Shown one piece after another: positions 835 through 9,298 of a stretch of 11,580 nt of DNA. Source of the DNA: Deltaproteobacteria bacterium RIFOXYA12_FULL_61_11 (GTDB taxonomy: Bacteria; Bdellovibrionota_F; JAHFAK01; YA12-FULL-61-11); contig MGSU01000071.1 of assembly GCA_001799195.1 (NCBI GenBank), positions 3,189 to 14,768 of the forward strand. The letters run 5' to 3'. Position 1 is the stretch's first letter, and every line of letters begins with the position of its first letter. The notes beneath the pieces were generated by a model, which saw only the letters and a program-made list of their open reading frames with translations, did no database searches and was not told the DNA's origin. The position numbers and the translations under genes are program-made.

Positions 835-1764
835 TCATTCGCCCGCGTTATCGTCGCGCTTGGTAGGGAAGTCGAGACTTGTCGCGGCCTTGACGAGACG
901 CAAACCGATATCGTAGCTGCGGAAATGGGGATAATCGGGGATATCCTCCCCCTGAATACAGAGCGGGGAGAACTCGCACCAACTCAACCCCTGGAACACA
1001 TGCCGAATACCACCGGGAGCACCTTTCGGGTCGATGCGAGAGGTATAGGTATAACCGGGACGATGCCAGTCCCAACACCATTCCGAGACAGTATCGTCGA
1101 GCCCACGGAAACCACCCCAGCCCGCCACGGAACAGTGAACCGGCCCAGGGCTGTCCGATCGCGGAGGGCATTGATCCTCGAACTCGCGGGTGGGTAACTC
1201 CGACGTGCGAGTCTTGATAGTATGAGCGGCGTACCGCCACTCGGCGGCCGTGGGTAAACGAAACCCCCCACAATCCTCGAGATAGACGGCATCCGCATTG
1301 ATCCCGTAACATTCCCGGTAGCCGAAATGTCTCGAGAGCCTGTTCAAGAAATGAATACTCTCGATCCAGGTCACCGATTCGACGGGGCAATCATCCCCGC
1401 AGGAACGGAATTGACTGGGATTGTTCCCCATGATGACCTTCCACAAGCCCTGGGTCACCTCGGTCTTGCCGATGAAAAAACCTCTCGATATCGTTATCTG
1501 TTGGGCTTCCCCCGGTTCATACCCTCGAAGCTTGAACGTGCCCGCGTCGAGGTAGAGCATCTCGATGAGCGGAGGTTCCTCGAGGATCGACGTTCTTTTG
1601 GGATGCAAGTCGATGGCCTGAGAGAGCATGACGTCATACATGAACTCTTGTTTTTCCCGCTGTAGGAACTGAAAGGTGTTGCCCGTGAAAACCACGACAT
1701 TGCCCAGCACCAACCCCAGTAATGTGAACAGGAGCAGTGCCTGGAATTGCTGAGAGCTGGTCAT
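835..1764 (-). CDS. Membrane-anchored FGE/SUMF1-like (formylglycine-generating-enzyme fold) protein
   Basis: This 309-residue protein has one N-terminal hydrophobic helix (about 9-28), a linker, then an FGE-sulfatase domain (about 66-292). Family landmarks seen are GKTEVTQGLW (99-108), NPSQF (115-119), PVESVTW (127-133), GFRLPTAAEWRYA (167-179), VSEWCWD (226-232) and a closing IGLRLV (286-291). In true FGEs the domain converts a sulfatase cysteine to formylglycine with a cysteine pair after the GGS motif; many bacterial relatives lack those cysteines and have other or unknown roles. Here GLSW (259-262) is followed by C263 and C269. C269 has the same offset from the serine as the second catalytic cysteine of human FGE, while C263 is one residue early. 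The protein has nine cysteines. No sulfatase gene is nearby. Its ATG overlaps the upstream methyltransferase-like stop as ATGA, so the two are probably translationally coupled. Catalytic function is unproven. Confidence 0.82.
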   Translation of the reverse strand: MTSSQQFQALLLFTLLGLVLGNVVVFTGNTFQFLQREKQEFMYDVMLSQAIDLHPKRTSILEEPPLIEMLYLDAGTFKLRGYEPGEAQQITISRGFFIGKTEVTQGLWKVIMGNNPSQFRSCGDDCPVESVTWIESIHFLNRLSRHFGYRECYGINADAVYLEDCGGFRLPTAAEWRYAAHTIKTRTSELPTREFEDQCPPRSDSPGPVHCSVAGWGGFRGLDDTVSEWCWDWHRPGYTYTSRIDPKGAPGGIRHVFQGLSWCEFSPLCIQGEDIPDYPHFRSYDIGLRLVKAATSLDFPTKRDDNAGE

Positions 1765-2687
1765 GGTCCCGGTTTCCTGAATTTCAGGTAGAAGGTCGTC
1801 TTCGGGTTGGTGTTGTAGAACGGCCCCTCGACAAGGACGAAACCATAGGTCGTGTAATGGCGCACGATGGTATCGGGAACATGCTCCGGTACGATGCTCT
1901 CATCGCCGATGGCGAGGATCCCACCTGGCTTCAGTGCCGTATACATGCTTTTGATCATGCGGATGTTTTCCTCCATAAGGAGGGGTCCGTTGTGAAAATG
2001 GACCTGGCTGAGCCAAATGGTATCGATCGATCGGGGCGGGAGTTTGGCGTCGTCCGGAGCATTGACGAAGGTGATGATGTTGTCGAAGGGATTGAGGAGC
2101 TTGCTGCGGGCATGCTCGTTCACGACTTCGATAGCAGCAGCCTGTACATCAATGGCGTAGAGCCGACCGGTCGTACCGAGGGCTCTCGCGATAGGGAAGG
2201 TGTAGGCGCCGACTCCACAGCCGATGTCCGCGAGAGTCTGGCCAGGGGTTATCTCGAGGAATTCCAGGACGAAGGGTATTTCCGGGCGATTGTAATACTT
2301 CTGTTCACTCCGGGCCAGGAAGCTGGCATCATACGTCGGGTAGGTCATGCTGAGCTGTTGTAGGAGCGCGTCTGCATTGTCCCCGACCTTCATGGGTCTG
2401 ACGAGGATATCGTCACTCGTCTCCGCAGGATCAACATCGAGTCGCAGGGCGAGGCCATCCTTGAGATGTCCCGGCACCGGCACCTTGTCCCGACGCGTCA
2501 AGGGCGCATAGAGCTCCGGGAAGAAATAGTTACCGATGAAACGAGAGATCCGGGGATCGTCCCATTGCATGCCAAGCAGTACTGCATTCAGCGCAATGGT
2601 CCCGAAGAGGAGGAGGTAGAGAGTCATCCTGCCGGCTTTCCCGAAACCTGACCAGAACCACATAGTGACGCTACTCGTACCGTTCAT
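1761..2687 (-). CDS. Membrane-anchored class I SAM-methyltransferase-like protein
   Basis: As called here the product has 308 residues. The open frame extends to 2762, but the ATG at 2687 is preferred: it has GAGGG four bases upstream, and the best candidate promoter lies inside the extension. One hydrophobic helix (about 21-40) follows K17 and R20. A linker leads to a Rossmann methyltransferase domain (about 115-305) with SAM-binding motif LADIGCGVG (152-160), acidic motif II YAIDVQ (177-182; D180), an HFHN motif (230-233) and LKPGGILAIGD after it. The domain is closely similar to the C-terminal domain of the divergent gene at 2836. Substrate is unknown. The helix and positive-inside rule predict the domain outside the cytoplasm, odd for a SAM enzyme; an N-out arrangement with a cytoplasmic domain is the alternative. 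It overlaps the FGE-like gene by four bases, so a shared transcript is likely. Confidence 0.85.
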   Translation of the reverse strand: MNGTSSVTMWFWSGFGKAGRMTLYLLLFGTIALNAVLLGMQWDDPRISRFIGNYFFPELYAPLTRRDKVPVPGHLKDGLALRLDVDPAETSDDILVRPMKVGDNADALLQQLSMTYPTYDASFLARSEQKYYNRPEIPFVLEFLEITPGQTLADIGCGVGAYTFPIARALGTTGRLYAIDVQAAAIEVVNEHARSKLLNPFDNIITFVNAPDDAKLPPRSIDTIWLSQVHFHNGPLLMEENIRMIKSMYTALKPGGILAIGDESIVPEHVPDTIVRHYTTYGFVLVEGPFYNTNPKTTFYLKFRKPGP

Positions 2688-2706
2688 TGTACCCTCGATG
2701 CCTTTC

Positions 2707-2735
2707 CAGCTACCATCCGGAGTCGGTACTGTCAA
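2707..2735 (-). promoter_or_regulatory. Candidate sigma-70-type promoter for the methyltransferase/FGE-like unit
   Basis: Read on the minus strand, a perfect TTGACA -35 box (2735-2730) is followed by a 17-base spacer and TAGCTG (2712-2707), a poor match to TATAAT. It would start transcription near 2700, just upstream of the GAGGG ribosome site and the ATG at 2687, giving a short leader. The -35 and spacing are seen; activity is inference, and the weak -10 keeps confidence low. Confidence 0.35.
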
Positions 2736-2782
2736 TGCACCGGTCCAAGGCGAGCATGCCACCAGAAAACTCCCTTGACCTT

Positions 2783-2800
2783 AGGTACCTCTTGGGCCAA
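2783..2800. promoter_or_regulatory. Two adjacent small palindromes in the divergent intergenic region (possible operator)
   Basis: AGGTACCT (2783-2790) is a perfect 8-base palindrome, followed two bases on by TTGG-G-CCAA (2792-2800). They lie between the two divergent methyltransferase-like genes, 36 bases upstream of the ATG at 2836, where a regulator could control the plus-strand operon. A TTGACC at 2775-2780 could be a plus-strand -35, but I find no convincing -10 at proper spacing. Sites this short occur by chance, so this is only a candidate. Confidence 0.2.
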
Positions 2801-2835
2801 AGTCTCTACAAGGTGTTGGCTGGAATATCCCCCTC

Positions 2836-4434
2836 ATGATGCTATCCCGTCGGCCGTCCGGCACGGTGCTGTACTCACTCCTCTGGTTGTTCCTCCTCCA
2901 CTGTGCCCCTGGACACCGCCCCGCGGCGGTCCTCCCCACGCCTCTTTCGCCCCCTCCCCTTCCAGGCCAGGCCCTGGACCACGGTTCCTCGACCGATCCC
3001 AACCCGCAAGTGGCCTGGTGCAGAACGATCATCCAACGGTATTTCCAAGCTCGCACCAATCTCACGGTGGCCGATCTCAGCGGACATCCCGAACACCCCT
3101 TCAGCACCTCGCTCCAGGCGCTGCTCCACCCCTATCGCCACCGTTTCATTTTCGACCCGCACATCGACCCCTCTGGGGACCTCACGGTGCTTCCACCCCA
3201 CCCCCTGCCCATCCCTCGCATCGGGTTGGAAGCCTTGCATGCGCTGCGGGATCGTCTGGACATCGGCATCATCCATCATAAGAATTTTAATCATGGCGAT
3301 ACCTTCCTGCCTCTGGCGCAGGATCATCTCGATGCGATCGTCTCCGCGATCAAACCCTCGGGTATCCTTCTGATCCTCGACACCCCGAGGACGAAGAACC
3401 TTGAGGCATGGCGTCACGACCTCGCTACCCAGTTCGATGAGACAACTCCCTTCCCCATCTTCGAGACCTTCGAGATCTCCTCGAACAAGACCCGCGAGGG
3501 CAGGTATTTCCTCGCGCTCTTGATGTCGCGGAAACCCGTCTTCCTCGAGAGCGATTACGAGGCCATGAGTGCCCATTATTTCACGACCGAACTCCCCGGC
3601 CTGATCGATGAACAGATCCGGATCCAACTTGCCAACGAGCAACCGAGCGACCTCATCTTTAGAAAAATTTGGGAGCACGTCTTCGACTTCTTCGCCCGAG
3701 AAGATGAGCGTTGGCGTTCCGATCCAACCTCGGTAACGACCATGGCAGGGTGGGACCAGAGCGATGATATTCCCTTCGAACTCGCTTTGCAGAACTATCT
3801 GACCATCTCGAAGAAACGACTATTTCGGGAACTCTTCCGGATTCAACTGGCCGAGACCGCACCGGATTATCGACCAGGTCACTTCGAGGAAATGAGTACC
3901 CGTTCCACAGAGCCTCGGTGGCCACAATTCGCCGAGCATTTCAAAATAGTCCCGGGCATGACGGTCGCCGATGTCGGCTGCGGTACCGGGAACTACACCT
4001 TCCACATGGCCCGTGAAGTCGGCCCGAAAGGCAGGGTCTACGCCGTGGATGTCCAGAAGACCATGCTCGACCTCATCGGGAACAAGGCCCGATCGGAGCT
4101 CCACAATCCCCATCAGAACATCACGATACTGCAAAGCCGAATCGACGATGCCCGTCTCCCCGAGGCCTCGTTCGACCACATCTATCTCATCAACATCCAT
4201 TTCCATAACTACCCCAGGCTGTTCGAGACGAACAAGGCCATGATCAGCAGCCTTATCCGCGGCCTGAAGCGAGGAGGGCGGCTCTTCCTCATCGACGGGA
4301 CCAACACCATGGCCCCGATGAGCGTCGGCAACAATATCATTCAACACTATTCCAATGCAGGGTTGCACTTCCTCGAGGGTCCCATCCGTCTCCCTGGTTA
4401 TTACGAGGTCCTCGTGGTATTCGAGAAATCCTAG
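2836..4434 (+). CDS. Exported or membrane-anchored tandem methyltransferase-fold protein (degenerate N-domain, intact C-domain)
   Basis: The 532-residue product starts with a signal-like segment (R5-R6, then hydrophobic 10-22) and a proline-rich linker (29-44). The C-terminal domain (about 345-530) is an intact class I methyltransferase fold: TVADVGCGTGNYTF (376-389), motif II YAVDVQ with D405, HFHN (455-458), then LKRGG (477-481). It closely matches the divergent protein at 1761-2687. Residues 60-235 look like a decayed copy: TVADLSG (77-83) replaces the glycine motif, FIFD ends at D107, NFNH (150-153) sits where HFHN would, and KPSGILLILD begins at 173. The spacing from that motif to the lysine is 23 residues in all three domains. 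A helical linker (about 230-345) separates the halves. L-H-C at 21-23 is a poor lipobox. The start has no good ribosome site but is the first ATG in frame. It heads a four-gene run. Substrate is unknown. Confidence 0.85.
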   Translation: MMLSRRPSGTVLYSLLWLFLLHCAPGHRPAAVLPTPLSPPPLPGQALDHGSSTDPNPQVAWCRTIIQRYFQARTNLTVADLSGHPEHPFSTSLQALLHPYRHRFIFDPHIDPSGDLTVLPPHPLPIPRIGLEALHALRDRLDIGIIHHKNFNHGDTFLPLAQDHLDAIVSAIKPSGILLILDTPRTKNLEAWRHDLATQFDETTPFPIFETFEISSNKTREGRYFLALLMSRKPVFLESDYEAMSAHYFTTELPGLIDEQIRIQLANEQPSDLIFRKIWEHVFDFFAREDERWRSDPTSVTTMAGWDQSDDIPFELALQNYLTISKKRLFRELFRIQLAETAPDYRPGHFEEMSTRSTEPRWPQFAEHFKIVPGMTVADVGCGTGNYTFHMAREVGPKGRVYAVDVQKTMLDLIGNKARSELHNPHQNITILQSRIDDARLPEASFDHIYLINIHFHNYPRLFETNKAMISSLIRGLKRGGRLFLIDGTNTMAPMSVGNNIIQHYSNAGLHFLEGPIRLPGYYEVLVVFEKS

Positions 4435-4456: not shown

Positions 4457-5422
4457 ATGTTGTCGATCATCCTTCCCGTTTACAACGAAGCGCCGAACCT
4501 TTTGGAAATGCACGCCAAGCTGACTTCGGCGCTCGACACCCTCGGACGAGACTACGAGATAGTGTATGTCGATGACGGCAGTCGGGACGGCAGCACCGAG
4601 CTCCTCGCGGGCTTCGCTTCCCCGCGGGTCCGGGTCATCGAATTGGCCCGCAACTACGGACAAACCGAAGCAATGCAAGCAGGTATCGACCATGCGAACG
4701 GCGACATCTTGATCTTCCTCGATGCCGACCTGCAGAACGATCCCTCCGATATCGCCACGCTGGTCGCCAAACTTGAAGAAGGGTATGATCTGGTCAGCGG
4801 CTGGCGTCGGCATCGCCAGGATTCGTGGCTCTTCAGACGCCTCCCTTCGCTCCTCGCCAACAGGCTCATCACTGGGCTCAACAAAACCCCCCTGCACGAC
4901 CTCGGCTGCACCCTCAAGGCCTATCGCCGCTCCATCCTCGGCCCTATCCGACTCCACGGTGAGATGCATCGACTGCTCCCCCTCTACGCGATCAGGCGCG
5001 GGGCACGCCTCGCGGAGGTCGAGGTCCTCCACCATCCCAGGTCGGGGGGACGCTCGAAATACGGTTTGGGCAGGACACCCAAAGTCTTATTGGATCTCCT
5101 CACCGCTACCTTCATCAATCATTACTTCAACAAGCCGATGTACGTCTTCGGCATGGGAGGCATCCTCCTTTTATTCCTCGGGGTCCTGACCGGTTGCTTC
5201 ATCATCGTACGGACGATCTACTTCGGCGGCACCTGGGTGAGCCCCATGCTCTTCCTGATGACCATGTGCATCCTCATTGGGTTCCAATTCCTCCTCATGG
5301 GCCTGCTCGCCGAGATCATGATCAGACTCTACTACCGGAACACCGAGGAGTTGTCCTACTCCGTGCGCAGAAGCCTTGGCGGCAGTGAGACGGACCGATC
5401 AACCGAGGTATCGCCCCCATGA
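4457..5422 (+). CDS. GT2 glycosyltransferase, polyprenyl-phosphate type (DPM1/GtrB/ArnC-like)
   Basis: The 321-residue product is predicted to move a sugar from a nucleotide donor to a polyprenyl-phosphate carrier at the cytoplasmic face of the inner membrane. The GT-A domain occupies residues 1-220: LSIILPVYNEAPN at the N-terminus, DDGS (39-42) for nucleotide binding and LDADLQNDP with the metal-binding D89/D91. Two C-terminal helices (about 229-252 and 262-290) and a basic tail match the two-helix anchor of the GtrB/DPM1-like group. The frame is open back to 4355, but the ATG at 4457 begins exactly at the family's conserved start and has AGGA six bases upstream; the longer version would overlap the preceding gene. 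The gap to the upstream gene is 22 bases, and the stop overlaps the next start as ATGA. Donor sugar and final acceptor cannot be told. Confidence 0.92.
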   Translation: MLSIILPVYNEAPNLLEMHAKLTSALDTLGRDYEIVYVDDGSRDGSTELLAGFASPRVRVIELARNYGQTEAMQAGIDHANGDILIFLDADLQNDPSDIATLVAKLEEGYDLVSGWRRHRQDSWLFRRLPSLLANRLITGLNKTPLHDLGCTLKAYRRSILGPIRLHGEMHRLLPLYAIRRGARLAEVEVLHHPRSGGRSKYGLGRTPKVLLDLLTATFINHYFNKPMYVFGMGGILLLFLGVLTGCFIIVRTIYFGGTWVSPMLFLMTMCILIGFQFLLMGLLAEIMIRLYYRNTEELSYSVRRSLGGSETDRSTEVSPP

Positions 5423-6897
5423 GACGCTCCTCCTCGTACCCGAGACCGGTGTCTTTCGGGGTGGCTGGGCCACTCGAGGTCCTCCTGGTCTCCCCTCCCC
5501 TCCGCGCCGAACAACGGTATGGCCGTTTAGCTGCCGCGGGCATGTACATGCCGCCGATGGGTTTGACGGTGCTCGCGGCCTCCCTGCGCAAGGCCGGCCA
5601 TAGCGTGGCCCTGCTCGACTGCGAAGCCCTCGGTCTCAATCACCAGGAGGCGAAGGAACAGTGCCGTCGGTCGGCTCCCAGGATCCTGGGCCTGACCGCG
5701 GTGACCATGTCGGTCCAATCAGCCGCGGACCTTGCAGCGCTGCTCAAACCCCTCCTGCCGAACACCGTGTTTGTGCTCGGAGGTCCCCACCTCAGCGCAG
5801 CCCCCGAGGAAACCCTCACCAGGTATCCGCAGTTCGATGTCGGCGTGATCGGCGAAGGCGAAGAAACCCTCCTCGAACTCGTCCGCCGGGTGCTCTGCGA
5901 GGAATCGATCACCGACCTCGAGGGTACAATCGTGTGGATCGGGGACACCCTGCGACGCAACCCGAACCGCGCCTTGCTCGAGGACATCGACACCATCCCC
6001 TTTCCCGCTTGGGACCTCTTGCCGGAACTCCAGACCCACTACCGTCCCTCGGCCTTCGGCTTCCGGAAATTGCCCTGCATGTCCGTGCTGACTTCCCGTG
6101 GCTGTCCCGGCCGTTGTTCCTTCTGCAGCCAGGGAGTCTGGACTGATCGATACCGAGAGCACAGCGCAGGCTACGTCCTGAAAATGATCCGCGAGCTCTA
6201 TCATCACTATGGTATCCGGGACCTGTGCATCTACGACGGCACCTTCGGGGTGAAGAGATCCCGGCTGATCGAGTTGTGCGAACTCCTGATCGCCGAACGC
6301 TGGGACCTCGTCTTCTCGTGCAACCTCAGGGTCGGGATGGCCGACGAGAAGATGCTCCGACTCCTCAAGAGAGCCGGCTGTTGGGGAGTGGCCTACGGCA
6401 TCGAGAGCGGATCCTCGAAGATTCTCGAGCACCTCCGGAAAGACATCACTCCGGCCATGATCCAACGCGCCATCACCCTCACCGCCCGCGCGGGATTGAT
6501 CAGCAAGGGCTACCTCATGGTCGGAACCCCCGCGGAGACCGAGGAGACCTTGGCAGAAACCCTCGCCTTCATCTCCACCCTCGACCTCGATCTGCTCACC
6601 GTGAATTCCTTCACCCCGTTCCCGGGCACTCTGGACTGGGAACGCGCCGACGGCTTTGGCACCTTCGACAAAGATTGGTCCCGGCTCAACCAGCACTCCT
6701 ACGCCTTCGTCCCTCACGGGTTAACCCGGGAACGCCTCGAGTACTACGTGCGCCTGATCACCCGGACCTTTTACGTGCGACCTCGCGTCATGATCAATTT
6801 CGCCCGGCTGATGCTCAATCCCTATCACCTCCCCCTCATCTACTCGGGGCTCACCTCTTTCGCGTCCTTCGTCGGCCGTTCCCATCGAGACCTCTGA
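5419..6897 (+). CDS. B12-binding-domain radical SAM protein (class B type)
   Basis: The 492-residue protein has the layout of cobalamin-type radical SAM enzymes. An N-terminal B12-binding-like domain (about 19-165) contains MYMPPMGLTVLAASLRKAGH, GGPHLSAAPEETL and VGVIGEGEETLLELV. The radical SAM barrel (about 215-430) has TSRGCPGRCSFCSQG, with C229, C233 and C236 (CxxxCxxC) binding the 4Fe-4S cluster that cleaves SAM. GIESGS and MVGTPAETEETL follow in the barrel, and a helical tail completes it. The classical DxHxxG cobalamin-ligand motif is absent, as in many BchE-like members, so B12 dependence is uncertain. Relatives do C-methylation, ring formation and other carbon chemistry on lipids and small molecules; the reaction here is unknown. 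The ATG overlaps the glycosyltransferase stop by four bases, with only a distant GAGG, which suggests translational coupling. Confidence 0.9.
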   Translation: MRRSSSYPRPVSFGVAGPLEVLLVSPPLRAEQRYGRLAAAGMYMPPMGLTVLAASLRKAGHSVALLDCEALGLNHQEAKEQCRRSAPRILGLTAVTMSVQSAADLAALLKPLLPNTVFVLGGPHLSAAPEETLTRYPQFDVGVIGEGEETLLELVRRVLCEESITDLEGTIVWIGDTLRRNPNRALLEDIDTIPFPAWDLLPELQTHYRPSAFGFRKLPCMSVLTSRGCPGRCSFCSQGVWTDRYREHSAGYVLKMIRELYHHYGIRDLCIYDGTFGVKRSRLIELCELLIAERWDLVFSCNLRVGMADEKMLRLLKRAGCWGVAYGIESGSSKILEHLRKDITPAMIQRAITLTARAGLISKGYLMVGTPAETEETLAETLAFISTLDLDLLTVNSFTPFPGTLDWERADGFGTFDKDWSRLNQHSYAFVPHGLTRERLEYYVRLITRTFYVRPRVMINFARLMLNPYHLPLIYSGLTSFASFVGRSHRDL

Positions 6898-6919
6898 GCT
6901 TCCCGGGAGGAGGTCTGGC

Positions 6920-8788
6920 ATGTGCGGCATTGCGGGTATTTTTGACGGTCATGGCCGGAGCCCCGGCCGAGAACTCGGCGCCATGCTCGGTACGCTGGTC
7001 CATCGCGGTCCGGACCACACGGGTTTTCACGAGGAACCTCACTGCGCCCTCGGCACCGCTCGTCTCGCCATCGTCGACCTCTTCACGGGTGACCAACCCC
7101 TGTATGACGAGACCGGCCGTTTCGTACTGTGTTGCAACGGGGAAATCTACAACGCGCCCGCGTTGCGCGAAACCTTGCTCGCCGGGGGCCATCGGTTTCG
7201 CAGTCGTTCGGATGCCGAAGTCATCGTGCATCTCTTCGAAGACCAGGGTCCCTCCTGTCTCACCAGCTTACGGGGCATGTTCGCCCTCGCCCTCTGGGAT
7301 CGGGCCCAGCGACGGCTGTTCCTCGCTCGGGACCGCCTCGGCATCAAGCCCCTCTTTTACTGGCAAGCGGGTTCCCGCTTTGCTTTCGCTTCCGAGATCA
7401 AGGCTTTGCTGACCCTACCTTGGGTTTCTGCTGATCCCGAGCCCAAGGCGGTTTCTCTTTTCCTGAGCCAGGGCTATATCCCCTCCGGATGCTGTGCCTT
7501 TACCGACGTGCAGGCCGTACTCCCCGGTCACACCCTGACGGTCGGAGAAGAGGGCGAGATCTCCCACGCGTGCTGGTGGAACTTGCCACTACCTGGTCGC
7601 TCGGAACCTTGTTCAGTGCAGGAAGCGACCCATGAGCTGCGGAAGCGCCTGACTGTCTCGGTGGATGAACATCTCATTTCTGACGTACCGGTCGGTGTCT
7701 TTCTCAGCGGGGGGTTGGATAGCAGCATCCTGACCTCCCTCGCCGCCCGCCGGCACCGGAAGTCCATGACCTGCTTTTCTATTTCCTTCGACGAAGCCGG
7801 CTATGACGAATCGGCCCATGCCCGAACCGTATGCGGGAATATTGAAGTAGAACTGCGTACGCTGCACTTTTCCAAGCGGGAATTCCTGGCAGCCTACACT
7901 GCGCTGACACCTATGCTCGACGAACCCTTCGCCGACAAGGCGATTTTCCCCTCGTACCAACTCTCCCGGCAGTGCCGCGAGAGCGTCAAGGTCGTGCTCA
8001 GCGGGGAAGGCGCGGACGAGGTGTTCCTGGGCTATCCAACCTACCTCGCTCATTACCTGCTCGCCCCCGCCCTTCGTCTTCCTGCGAGTTCGAGATCCTT
8101 CCTCGCCGCCCTCGGCGGGAGCCTACCGGATCCCCCCGGTTACATGACCCCTCTCTACAGGATACGCCGACTACTCGCGGGTCTGAGCACGACCGACGAA
8201 CTCCGACGGCATCTCGCTTGGATGGGTCAGGGTGCGGGAGACCTCGCCCCCCGACTCCTCCTTCCTGGCTTGACCCATTCCCCGAGCCTCGGCGAACTCG
8301 GCATCACCGCGGAGGAACTCCCCTCCAGCCTGCTGAGGCGGGTCCAACTCCTCGACTTCCGCACGTATTTGGCCGCAGATCTCTTGGTCAAGGCCGATCG
8401 GGCTTCCATGGCGTGCGGTCTCGAGCTGCGAGTCCCCTTCCTGGACCATACCCTGGTCGAATGGTTATGGTCCCTGCCCGAGGACCTCATCCTCTGCAAA
8501 CGGATCCTGCGCCGAGCCTTCTCCGCCGCTCTTCCCCCCTCGGTGCTTCACAGGAGGAAGCACGGTCTGTCCGTGCCCTTCGGTCAATGGTTGCATGACC
8601 CTGCCTTCAGGCAACACTTCGCACCCTGTTTTGCCCCCGCCTTGCTCCGGAGACAAGGTCTGTTCCGGCCTTCCGTCCCGCAAGAGCTGTTGGACCAACA
8701 CCTCCGGAAGAAGGCCAACCATCAATGGCCGCTCCTCACCTACATCATGTTCCAGACGTGGTACCGCCGTTGGGTCGAGAAGACCTGA
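6920..8788 (+). CDS. asnB: Asparagine synthetase, glutamine-hydrolysing (AsnB type)
   Basis: The 622-residue product is the usual length for AsnB. It starts MCGIAGIF, so Cys2 becomes the N-terminal nucleophile of the class II glutaminase after Met removal. The glutaminase domain (1 to about 200) shows RLAIVDL, CNGEIYN, SDAEVIVHLF and RDRLGIKPLFYW. The synthetase domain has the ATP-pyrophosphatase loop SGGLDSS (263-269), LSGEGADEVFLGYPTY, VKADRASMACGLELRVPFLD and a C-terminal RRKHGLSVPF segment. The standard reaction is ATP-dependent amidation of aspartate using glutamine-derived ammonia, but AsnB homologues in biosynthetic and polysaccharide loci often amidate other carboxylates. Its place as last gene after a glycosyltransferase and radical SAM gene makes a specialised role plausible. 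AGGAGG lies six bases before the ATG. It is convergent with the HAMP-protein gene, only nine bases apart. Confidence 0.93.
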   Translation: MCGIAGIFDGHGRSPGRELGAMLGTLVHRGPDHTGFHEEPHCALGTARLAIVDLFTGDQPLYDETGRFVLCCNGEIYNAPALRETLLAGGHRFRSRSDAEVIVHLFEDQGPSCLTSLRGMFALALWDRAQRRLFLARDRLGIKPLFYWQAGSRFAFASEIKALLTLPWVSADPEPKAVSLFLSQGYIPSGCCAFTDVQAVLPGHTLTVGEEGEISHACWWNLPLPGRSEPCSVQEATHELRKRLTVSVDEHLISDVPVGVFLSGGLDSSILTSLAARRHRKSMTCFSISFDEAGYDESAHARTVCGNIEVELRTLHFSKREFLAAYTALTPMLDEPFADKAIFPSYQLSRQCRESVKVVLSGEGADEVFLGYPTYLAHYLLAPALRLPASSRSFLAALGGSLPDPPGYMTPLYRIRRLLAGLSTTDELRRHLAWMGQGAGDLAPRLLLPGLTHSPSLGELGITAEELPSSLLRRVQLLDFRTYLAADLLVKADRASMACGLELRVPFLDHTLVEWLWSLPEDLILCKRILRRAFSAALPPSVLHRRKHGLSVPFGQWLHDPAFRQHFAPCFAPALLRRQGLFRPSVPQELLDQHLRKKANHQWPLLTYIMFQTWYRRWVEKT

Positions 8789-8797
8789 ACGCGGGGC

Positions 8798-9298
8798 TCA
8801 AGGCTTCCGCTGGAGCACCTCGAAAAGCAATTCGAAGACGTCTCTAAATTCGTCTCCCTTCCGCAGGTTGCGACGTTCGACTTGGCCCTCGGCACGGTGC
8901 TGGCGCAGGAGGCGACGGATGACCATCATCGGACCGGCGATCCGGTGGGTGATCAGAATGGTGAGAAAACAAGCCGTGCAGAAGACCACGGCGATGAAGC
9001 CCCACGAGGCCCACTGCAGAGCCTGGAGCAAGGAGCGATTCTCCTCGACGAACTGCTCGGTCCGTTGGAGGTTGCGATCCGCGCCGGCCTTCTCTTCGGC
9101 CGAGATCTCCACGATGGTGTGCACCAGATCCACCTGATCGCGGCCGAGCCCCAGGAGCTGCTCGTTGGCATGGCTCATCCTGCCCGCCAGATGGGTCACG
9201 GCCACGAGGAACACCCCCGACAGGATCGCCAGGACGGAGAGCACATAGACCACGTACCGGAGTTGGAAACGCCAATCGGAAAGGTAGCGCAACCTCAT
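8798..9298 (-). CDS. Small TM-TM-HAMP membrane protein without an output domain
   Basis: The 166-residue product has a basic N-terminus, a first membrane helix (about 14-37), a mostly helical, charged extracytoplasmic stretch (38-96) and a second helix (about 97-118). A HAMP-like segment follows directly: HRIAGPMMVIRRLLRQHRAE, then GDEFRDVFELLFEVLQ up to the C-terminus. This matches the front half of a chemoreceptor or sensor kinase, but no kinase, cyclase or methyl-accepting domain follows, and the stop leads straight into the convergent asnB stop. It could pass a signal to a separate partner or act as a structural membrane subunit. AAGGAAGGA lies upstream of the ATG, which overlaps the TlpA-like stop as ATGA, so it belongs to the minus-strand respiratory operon. 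The function is unknown; the HAMP call rests on the P-x-x-x-I start and E-F-R-D pattern. Confidence 0.78.
   Translation of the reverse strand: MRLRYLSDWRFQLRYVVYVLSVLAILSGVFLVAVTHLAGRMSHANEQLLGLGRDQVDLVHTIVEISAEEKAGADRNLQRTEQFVEENRSLLQALQWASWGFIAVVFCTACFLTILITHRIAGPMMVIRRLLRQHRAEGQVERRNLRKGDEFRDVFELLFEVLQRKP

Follow-up and report, generated by a model that had tools for sequence, protein, structure and literature searches.

In nematode phosphoethanolamine methyltransferases (PMT), one copy of the methyltransferase (MTase) domain is vestigial. PRMT7 and PRMT9 carry two MTase modules per chain, one of them without the SAM-binding motifs, and in PRMT7 this inactive module is required for the activity of the other (PMC8399567, PMC10908127). 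The tRNA m1A58 methyltransferase TRM6-TRM61 is a duplicated MTase in which the copy without SAM binding serves as the partner (PMC5007650). Here, we analyzed a window of 11,580 nucleotides (the whole stretch of DNA under study) from Deltaproteobacteria bacterium RIFOXYA12_FULL_61_11, in which a 532-aa protein very probably joins an intact MTase domain to a much more diverged one.

Two divergent genes encode paralogous class I MTase domains

The minus-strand gene (1761..2687) encodes a 308-aa membrane-anchored class I SAM MTase, as judged by its Pfam match and its identity to the C-terminal half (C-half) of the 532-aa protein. The ATG at 2687, with GAGGG upstream, is the likelier start, and a GTG at 2762 is also able to open the reading frame. 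A single transmembrane segment is predicted at residues 22-40 (2568..2624, minus strand; hydropathy peak 1.93). On the plus strand, an open reading frame with coding-like codon use throughout (2836..4434) encodes the 532-aa protein, which is read as an export signal followed by a pseudo-MTase domain, a helical linker and an MTase domain. Its N-terminal basic-plus-hydrophobic segment MMLSRRPSGTVLYSLLWLFLLHC (2836..2910) is likely, from its sequence, a signal peptide or lipoprotein signal; the lipobox is non-canonical, with H preceding C, and in a Kyte-Doolittle scan with a window size of 19 residues the short hydrophobic core stays under the threshold of 1.6. The linker (residues 234-345; 3535..3870, plus strand) is helical in the single-sequence model and belongs to no family, nothing convincing being found in Pfam, and its seeming likeness to a helical insert of P0003, a third MTase of this genome, gave a null BLAST result. 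The C-half (residues 350-532; 3883..4431, plus strand) is a class I SAM MTase domain with an intact motif I, DVGCGTGNYTF (Pfam Methyltransf_25, E 4e-16).

The C-half and the minus-strand protein share 41% identity over 181 residues (E 5e-42), which is far beyond chance, and score 59.8 and 45.8 bits, respectively, against Methyltransf_25, for which the curated cut-off is 27. Both keep the motif I GxGxG (DVGCGTG and DIGCGVG) and the motif II acid (D405 and D180). The first-pass annotation had described motif I, motif II, HFHN and LKxGG as common to the two proteins, with equal spacings, and this description holds in full: T376, D405, H455 (HFHN, 4198..4209, plus strand) and K478 (KRGG) in the C-half, and T151, D180, H230 (HFHN, 1989..2000, minus strand) and K253 (KPGG) in the minus-strand protein numbered from ATG 2687, are separated by 29, 50 and 23 residues in both cases. 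By sequence, the minus-strand protein and the C-half, at residues 350-532, are thus paralogs within the class I SAM MTases. A plasmid search with either of them returned generic and exported MTases, and the PDB sequence matches of the C-half (5wp4 and 5wp5, E 7.5e-6) reflect generic similarity.

The N-terminal half is very probably a third, diverged copy

The N-terminal half (N-half) of the 532-aa protein, at about residues 52-233 (2989..3534, plus strand), is very probably a third and much more diverged copy of the domain. It contains T77 in the motif I remnant TVADLSG (3064..3084), D107 at the position of the motif II acid (3154..3156), N150 in NFNH, the counterpart of HFHN (3283..3294), and K173 in KPSG, the counterpart of K(P/R)GG (3352..3363), all on the plus strand. 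The outer spacings of 30 and 23 residues are those given in the first-pass annotation, and the middle one is 43 residues in the N-half as against 50 in both intact copies. SGHPEHP occupies the place of GxGxG, a signature that the same annotation had reported as lost, and without a SAM loop of the expected form the N-half has therefore probably, indeed quite likely, given up SAM binding.

Profile tests, with about 500 real protein segments of the same genome as controls, place the N-half at or near the top. It ranked first of 509 with an MTase HMM and second of 509 with an HMM of the exported family, behind RsmH, a true MTase and the sole rival in the HMM tests, so that its whole-domain profile similarity exceeds that of the non-MTase controls. 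By semi-global profile score, it ranked first of 487, and first of 121 when both MTases of the window were removed from the profile, and it dropped to third of 121 with a profile of generic MTases only. In a full-length profile alignment made without using the motifs, the register first proposed was recovered for TVAD, D107, NFNH and KPSG as well as for the last strand. A MAFFT alignment begun upstream of the domain misplaced NFNH and for this reason was not used for structure prediction.

Two single-sequence AlphaFold runs gave low-confidence models (pLDDT 37 and 47), which therefore neither prove nor contradict a seven-stranded Rossmann MTase fold of the N-half. Both nevertheless show, within the N-half, the order beta4-alphaD-beta5-alphaE-beta6-beta7 of the second half of the MTase fold, the D helix and strand 5 lying at a 305-residue offset, the same as for the C-half, while strands 1-3 are unformed. 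A fold search with the whole-protein model returned MTases on top, with the source half not distinguishable. Codon usage of the N-half matches that of the rest of the gene, C-half included, which shows that it is a maintained coding domain.

Three copies of one domain, as the first-pass annotation had proposed, are thus supported by profile tests, register and secondary-structure order; profile comparison of the two halves, where a lack of similarity would have counted against the proposal, was not null and put the N-half above controls. We hold an MTase fold of the N-half to be very likely. The proposed history of duplication, fusion and decay stands as regards the common domain. "Decay" describes no more than the cofactor loop, since the N-half has the same codon usage as the remainder of the gene. 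Duplication and fusion may have taken place in this lineage; as the two intact copies resemble each other (41%) far more than either resembles the N-half, an older fusion is equally compatible with the data, and so is the capture of another member of the family.

Export signals and gene neighborhood

Export or membrane-anchor signals, which the first-pass annotation had missed on all these proteins, are present on both window proteins and on P0003. They are also found on the MTase of another genome of the phylum and on relatives from Bradyrhizobium (WP_280978374), Delftia (WP_031942805) and Methylosinus (WP_161915469), that is, in Alpha- and Betaproteobacteria. The annotation of these three relatives goes no further than "class I SAM-dependent methyltransferase" or "methyltransferase domain-containing protein". 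From sequence, the export signal, borne by all members examined, appears to be a family trait that is unexplained, and a periplasmic location is likely.

No second tandem was found; the phylum sample was one other genome, whose MTase is generic, anchored and without the tandem. Among the matches listed to the 532-aa protein from 398 genomes in the phylum of a Clostridia MAG, all lie in the C-terminal part and none in the N-half. Peptide-pattern searches with the whole protein found no relatives in genome contigs, those of viral contigs gave none either, and a pattern search of genome contigs with the two-MTase alignment returned two remote MTases. A literature search on COG4798 found no paper.

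The minus-strand MTase gene overlaps by 4 bases, and is probably cotranscribed with, a gene for a membrane-anchored FGE/SUMF1-like protein (835..1764, minus strand; PF03781, E 1.6e-16; hydropathy 2.37 at residue 9). An EgtB/EgtD or OvoA thiohistidine pathway, considered for an FGE-like gene beside an MTase, was rejected because the DinB domain is absent: the FGE-like protein matches PF03781 only, with no DinB match, and has a membrane anchor. Starting 22 bases past the 532-aa gene, a polyprenyl-phosphate-type GT2 glycosyltransferase (4457..5422; PF00535, E 7.7e-37; ArnC-like NF007986, E 3e-59, below cut-off) is followed by an overlapping B12-binding radical SAM protein (5419..6897; PF02310 and PF04055) and an asparagine-synthase-like amidotransferase (6920..8788; TIGR01536, 445.6 bits, exceeding the cut-off of 267.1; TIGR03108, 475.6 bits, below its cut-off), all on the plus strand. 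The scaffold also carries a foreign, eukaryote-like segment past an N run located about 3 kb from the 532-aa gene.

Proposed role of the tandem and its alternatives

We lean slightly toward a tandem with a catalytic C-half and an MTase-fold N-half as built-in partner. Two divergent operons would each be headed by a membrane-targeted class I MTase, both enzymes belonging to a single family recognizable by the H/Y-H-N-type motif that follows strand 4. The enzyme on the minus strand consists of one domain, and the 532-aa enzyme would be a tandem. The C-terminal domain with the SAM loop would be the putative catalytic unit, and the N-terminal domain an MTase-fold paralog whose SAM loop is gone. 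By analogy with PRMT7, there is perhaps an even chance that the N-half forms a pseudo-dimer with the catalytic domain and contributes to stability or to shaping of the acceptor site. The acceptor could be a cell-envelope product of the GT2, radical SAM and amidotransferase genes co-transcribed with the tandem, either a lipid-linked sugar or an amidated metabolite; we consider such a putative envelope substrate evenly balanced.

A less likely explanation is that the MTase-derived N-half, instead of pairing as a pseudo-dimer, binds the substrate or serves as a scaffold, bringing in the envelope acceptor or the neighboring enzymes. The long helical linker would permit its independent placement, and D107 and NFNH, the aromatic/polar motif after strand 4, were retained despite loss of the SAM loop; however, in related tandem proteins the inactive domain usually pairs with the catalytic MTase (PMC10908127).

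More doubtful still is that the exported family does not methylate at all and was reused outside the cytoplasm, the glycine loop of the C-half binding another nucleotide or nothing. We know of no extracytoplasmic SAM pool, which makes an exported SAM-dependent enzyme puzzling, and all members examined bear export signals. On the other hand, the C-half and the minus-strand protein retain motif I (DVGCGTG) and the motif II acid, as do most of the distant relatives. An exported SAM-type MTase family spread over several phyla, in a version provided here with an inactive MTase partner, would imply either SAM methylation outside the cytoplasmic membrane or reuse of a SAM-type fold for another reaction, a generalization that we offer only tentatively.

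It is improbable that the N-half is another alpha/beta domain, unrelated to MTases, with short motifs arising by chance. No match at E<=10 was obtained in Pfam, MTase profiles included, or among PDB sequences, none in NCBIfam, and the plasmid search with the N-half returned nothing meaningful. Pairwise similarity to the other copies is weak (BLASTP E 0.021, in register; hhalign probability 5%), and Foldseek with the low-confidence model gave no match below E 0.1, MTases being mixed with DHFR, acetyltransferases and cyclases among the top matches; Z did not exceed 4.3. Nevertheless, the N-half outscores every non-MTase segment and ties with a true MTase, the motif-free alignment recovers the register of the whole domain, and the secondary-structure order is correct for an MTase. 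Finally, two genes joined by misassembly, as the foreign segment on the scaffold and a layout seen in one genome only might suggest, are hardly conceivable given a single unbroken frame without N, an N run about 3 kb away and uniform codon use through N-half, linker and C-half.

Comparison with known active/inactive MTase pairs

Returning to the tandem with a built-in partner, its design of an active plus an inactive MTase is already known (PMC8399567, PMC10908127, PMC5007650) and the 532-aa protein itself is undescribed; the statement of the first-pass annotation that no described family has this layout is thus right for the protein and too broad for the design. If true, our reading would make a bacterial, exported addition to the small set of enzymes keeping a dead copy of the catalytic domain as partner, and it points to a membrane-targeted MTase family with an unexplained methyl donor. 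The exported class I MTases WP_280978374, WP_031942805 and WP_161915469 resemble the 532-aa protein in the N-terminal export signal, the intact SAM loop, YHN, YHE or YHH at the HFHN position and the same C-terminal strand, but have a single MTase domain and lack the pseudo-MTase half. Plant and nematode PMT (PDB 5wp4, 5wp5) have two class I MTase domains per chain; they are however cytosolic and act on phosphobases, and the similarity of the C-half to them is generic (E 7.5e-6). TRM6-TRM61 lost SAM binding in one copy of a duplicated MTase, but consists of two separate subunits, is intracellular and acts on tRNA. PRMT7 and PRMT9 resemble the 532-aa protein in that a single chain combines two MTase modules, of which one is devoid of the SAM-binding motifs; no PRMT profile is among the Pfam or NCBIfam matches listed for the 532-aa protein. 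In PRMT7 and PRMT9, the N-terminal module is the active one and a PRMT beta-barrel is part of both modules, whereas the 532-aa protein is bacterial and exported and has its intact module at the C-terminus.

The 532-residue protein contains an intact methyltransferase domain

The C-terminal half (residues 350-532) of the 532-residue protein (2836-4434, plus strand) aligns over 181 residues with the 308-residue protein encoded divergently at 1761-2687 on the minus strand, with 41% identity (BLASTP, E 5e-42). The first matches Pfam Methyltransf_25 (59.8 bits) and the second Methyltransf_31 (47.8 bits), both above the cut-off of 27, and both keep an intact motif I (DVGCGTGNYTF and DIGCGVGAYTF, respectively). 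There is no doubt that the two are class I SAM methyltransferase (MTase) domains and close paralogs. In translation, the motif I threonine, the motif II aspartate, HFHN and the next lysine fall at 376, 405, 455 and 478 in the C-terminal half and at 151, 180, 230 and 253 in the minus-strand protein (residue 1 being the ATG at 2687), giving the spacings of 29, 50 and 23 that the first-pass annotation had claimed for each. Counterparts in the N-terminal half stand at 77, 107, 150 and 173 (spacings 30, 43 and 23). Translation and motif positions thus bear out its reading of 1761-4434 as three MTase-like domain copies in two divergent genes.

The N-terminal half is very probably a divergent copy of the same domain

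Searched alone, the N-terminal half gave nothing in Pfam at E<=10, nothing among PDB sequences and no NCBIfam family. Pairwise, hhalign returned a probability of 5%, and BLASTP against the minus-strand protein was marginal (E 0.021, residues 141-182), in the register that had been proposed. Profile comparison, named at the outset as a check, did reveal similarity. Nine MTases went into a profile: both window copies, three from the window's genome and G001 (another genome of the phylum) and four from plasmids. The controls were 508 real-protein segments taken from the window's own genome. With HMMER, the N-terminal half came top of the 509 segments, and its score was reached by none of 3000 shuffles, 1501 of which were reported. 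When the whole domain was forced to align in a semi-global test, it ranked first of 487, with z about 3.4 above real proteins; it was first of 121 with a profile lacking both window copies and third of 121 when the Bradyrhizobium and P0003 sequences (described below) were also removed. When an HMM built from the exported relatives was used, just one of the 508 controls outscored it, namely RsmH (MraW), a genuine SAM MTase. The semi-global alignment, in which motifs were not used, placed TVAD on TVAD, FIFD on YAVD, NFNH on HFHN, KPSG on KRGG and GRYFLALLMSRK on GYYEVLVVFEKS; the pairing from TVAD to GRYFLALLMSRK means that the match spans the whole domain, residues ~52-233.

AlphaFold2, run without alignment, gave poor models of the full protein (pLDDT 37) and of residues 52-238 alone (pLDDT 47, ~60 in the second half). 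In both, the first half of the N-terminal domain was unformed and the second was modelled as strand-helix-strand-helix-strand-strand, the order of class I MTase beta4-alphaD-beta5-alphaE-beta6-beta7. The full-length model has helix 158-172 and strand 176-183 ~305 residues ahead of their C-terminal counterparts, as the motifs are. The isolated, low-pLDDT model gave mixed weak matches in Foldseek and VIA-align (best E 0.14, best Z 4.3), and prediction neither proves nor refutes an MTase fold here.

This copy had been called decayed. SAM binding has probably been lost, since SGHPEHP stands in place of the glycine loop, but the DNA shows no decay, with per-codon log-odds of 0.17 for the N-terminal half, 0.20 for the linker and 0.19 for the C-terminal half, the other forward frames being negative.

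Related MTases carry export signals

The 532-residue protein has an export-type segment, basic and hydrophobic, at its N terminus; hydropathy predicts a membrane segment near the N terminus of the minus-strand MTase and of an FGE/SUMF1-like protein. Positive charges precede the hydrophobic segment in both MTases; judged solely from hydropathy and charge, the domains would sit outside the cytoplasm. A third MTase of the window's genome, P0003 (402 residues, minus strand, L004:793-1998 on contig G000:C109), has a signal peptide and an MTase domain; a long insert of helices separates strand 5 from the last strands. The MTase of G001 has an N-terminal membrane segment, and plasmid-borne MTases of Bradyrhizobium (L022:871-2142), Delftia (L014:1767-2495) and Methylosinus (L061:1803-2534) have clear signal peptides, with YHN, YHE or YHH at the HFHN position. 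The best matches of the Bradyrhizobium protein in the window's genome are the three exported MTases, an arsenite-type MTase coming far behind. Taken together, these proteins form a family of MTases with an export signal or an anchor, of which we found no discussion in the literature searched. The export signals are less expected than the tandem, and the plasmid-borne enzymes would need a methyl donor outside the cytoplasm.

Gene neighbourhood

A GT2 glycosyltransferase gene starts 22 bases 3' of the 532-residue gene on the plus strand, overlapped by a B12-binding radical SAM gene and followed by one for an asparagine-synthase-like amidotransferase; the three share one operon (4457-8788). The amidotransferase resembles the XrtA/PEP-CTERM type, under that type's cut-off. 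The membrane-anchored FGE/SUMF1-like protein (835-1764, minus strand) is not EgtB-like, and that identity was rejected; its gene overlaps the minus-strand MTase gene by 4 bases and is probably cotranscribed with it. Farther along, a 166-residue protein with two hydrophobic segments (8798-9298, minus strand), for which no family match was found, adjoins TlpA/ResA-like thioredoxin and NrfD genes. Immediately upstream of the window, the left end of the contig (G000:C71:1-3188, L032) looks eukaryotic, with a weak UBP24/USP9X ARM repeat match (E 0.0004) and an EF-hand-like ORF; a run of N parts it from the bacterial window, and a scaffold misjoin with host DNA in the MAG is probable.

A tandem of known design

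The tandem occurs once in the window's genome and is absent from G001, the sole other genome of the phylum examined. Genome scans by sequence pattern turned up no close relative, and none of the matches listed from 398 genomes of G002's phylum (G002 being a Clostridia MAG) reached the N-terminal half. Most economically, the C-terminal half would be the enzyme and the N-terminal half, descended from the same domain, its structural or regulatory partner. The co-transcribed genes suggest that the acceptor may be an envelope glycolipid or an amidated metabolite. The first-pass interpretation was mostly right in seeing three copies of one domain and overstated the novelty of the layout: the 532-residue protein, not itself described, would be a variant of an already known design, likened to PRMT7, in which an active MTase is documented with an inactive partner derived from the same domain, and comparable to TRM6-TRM61, where the pairing is between separate subunits.
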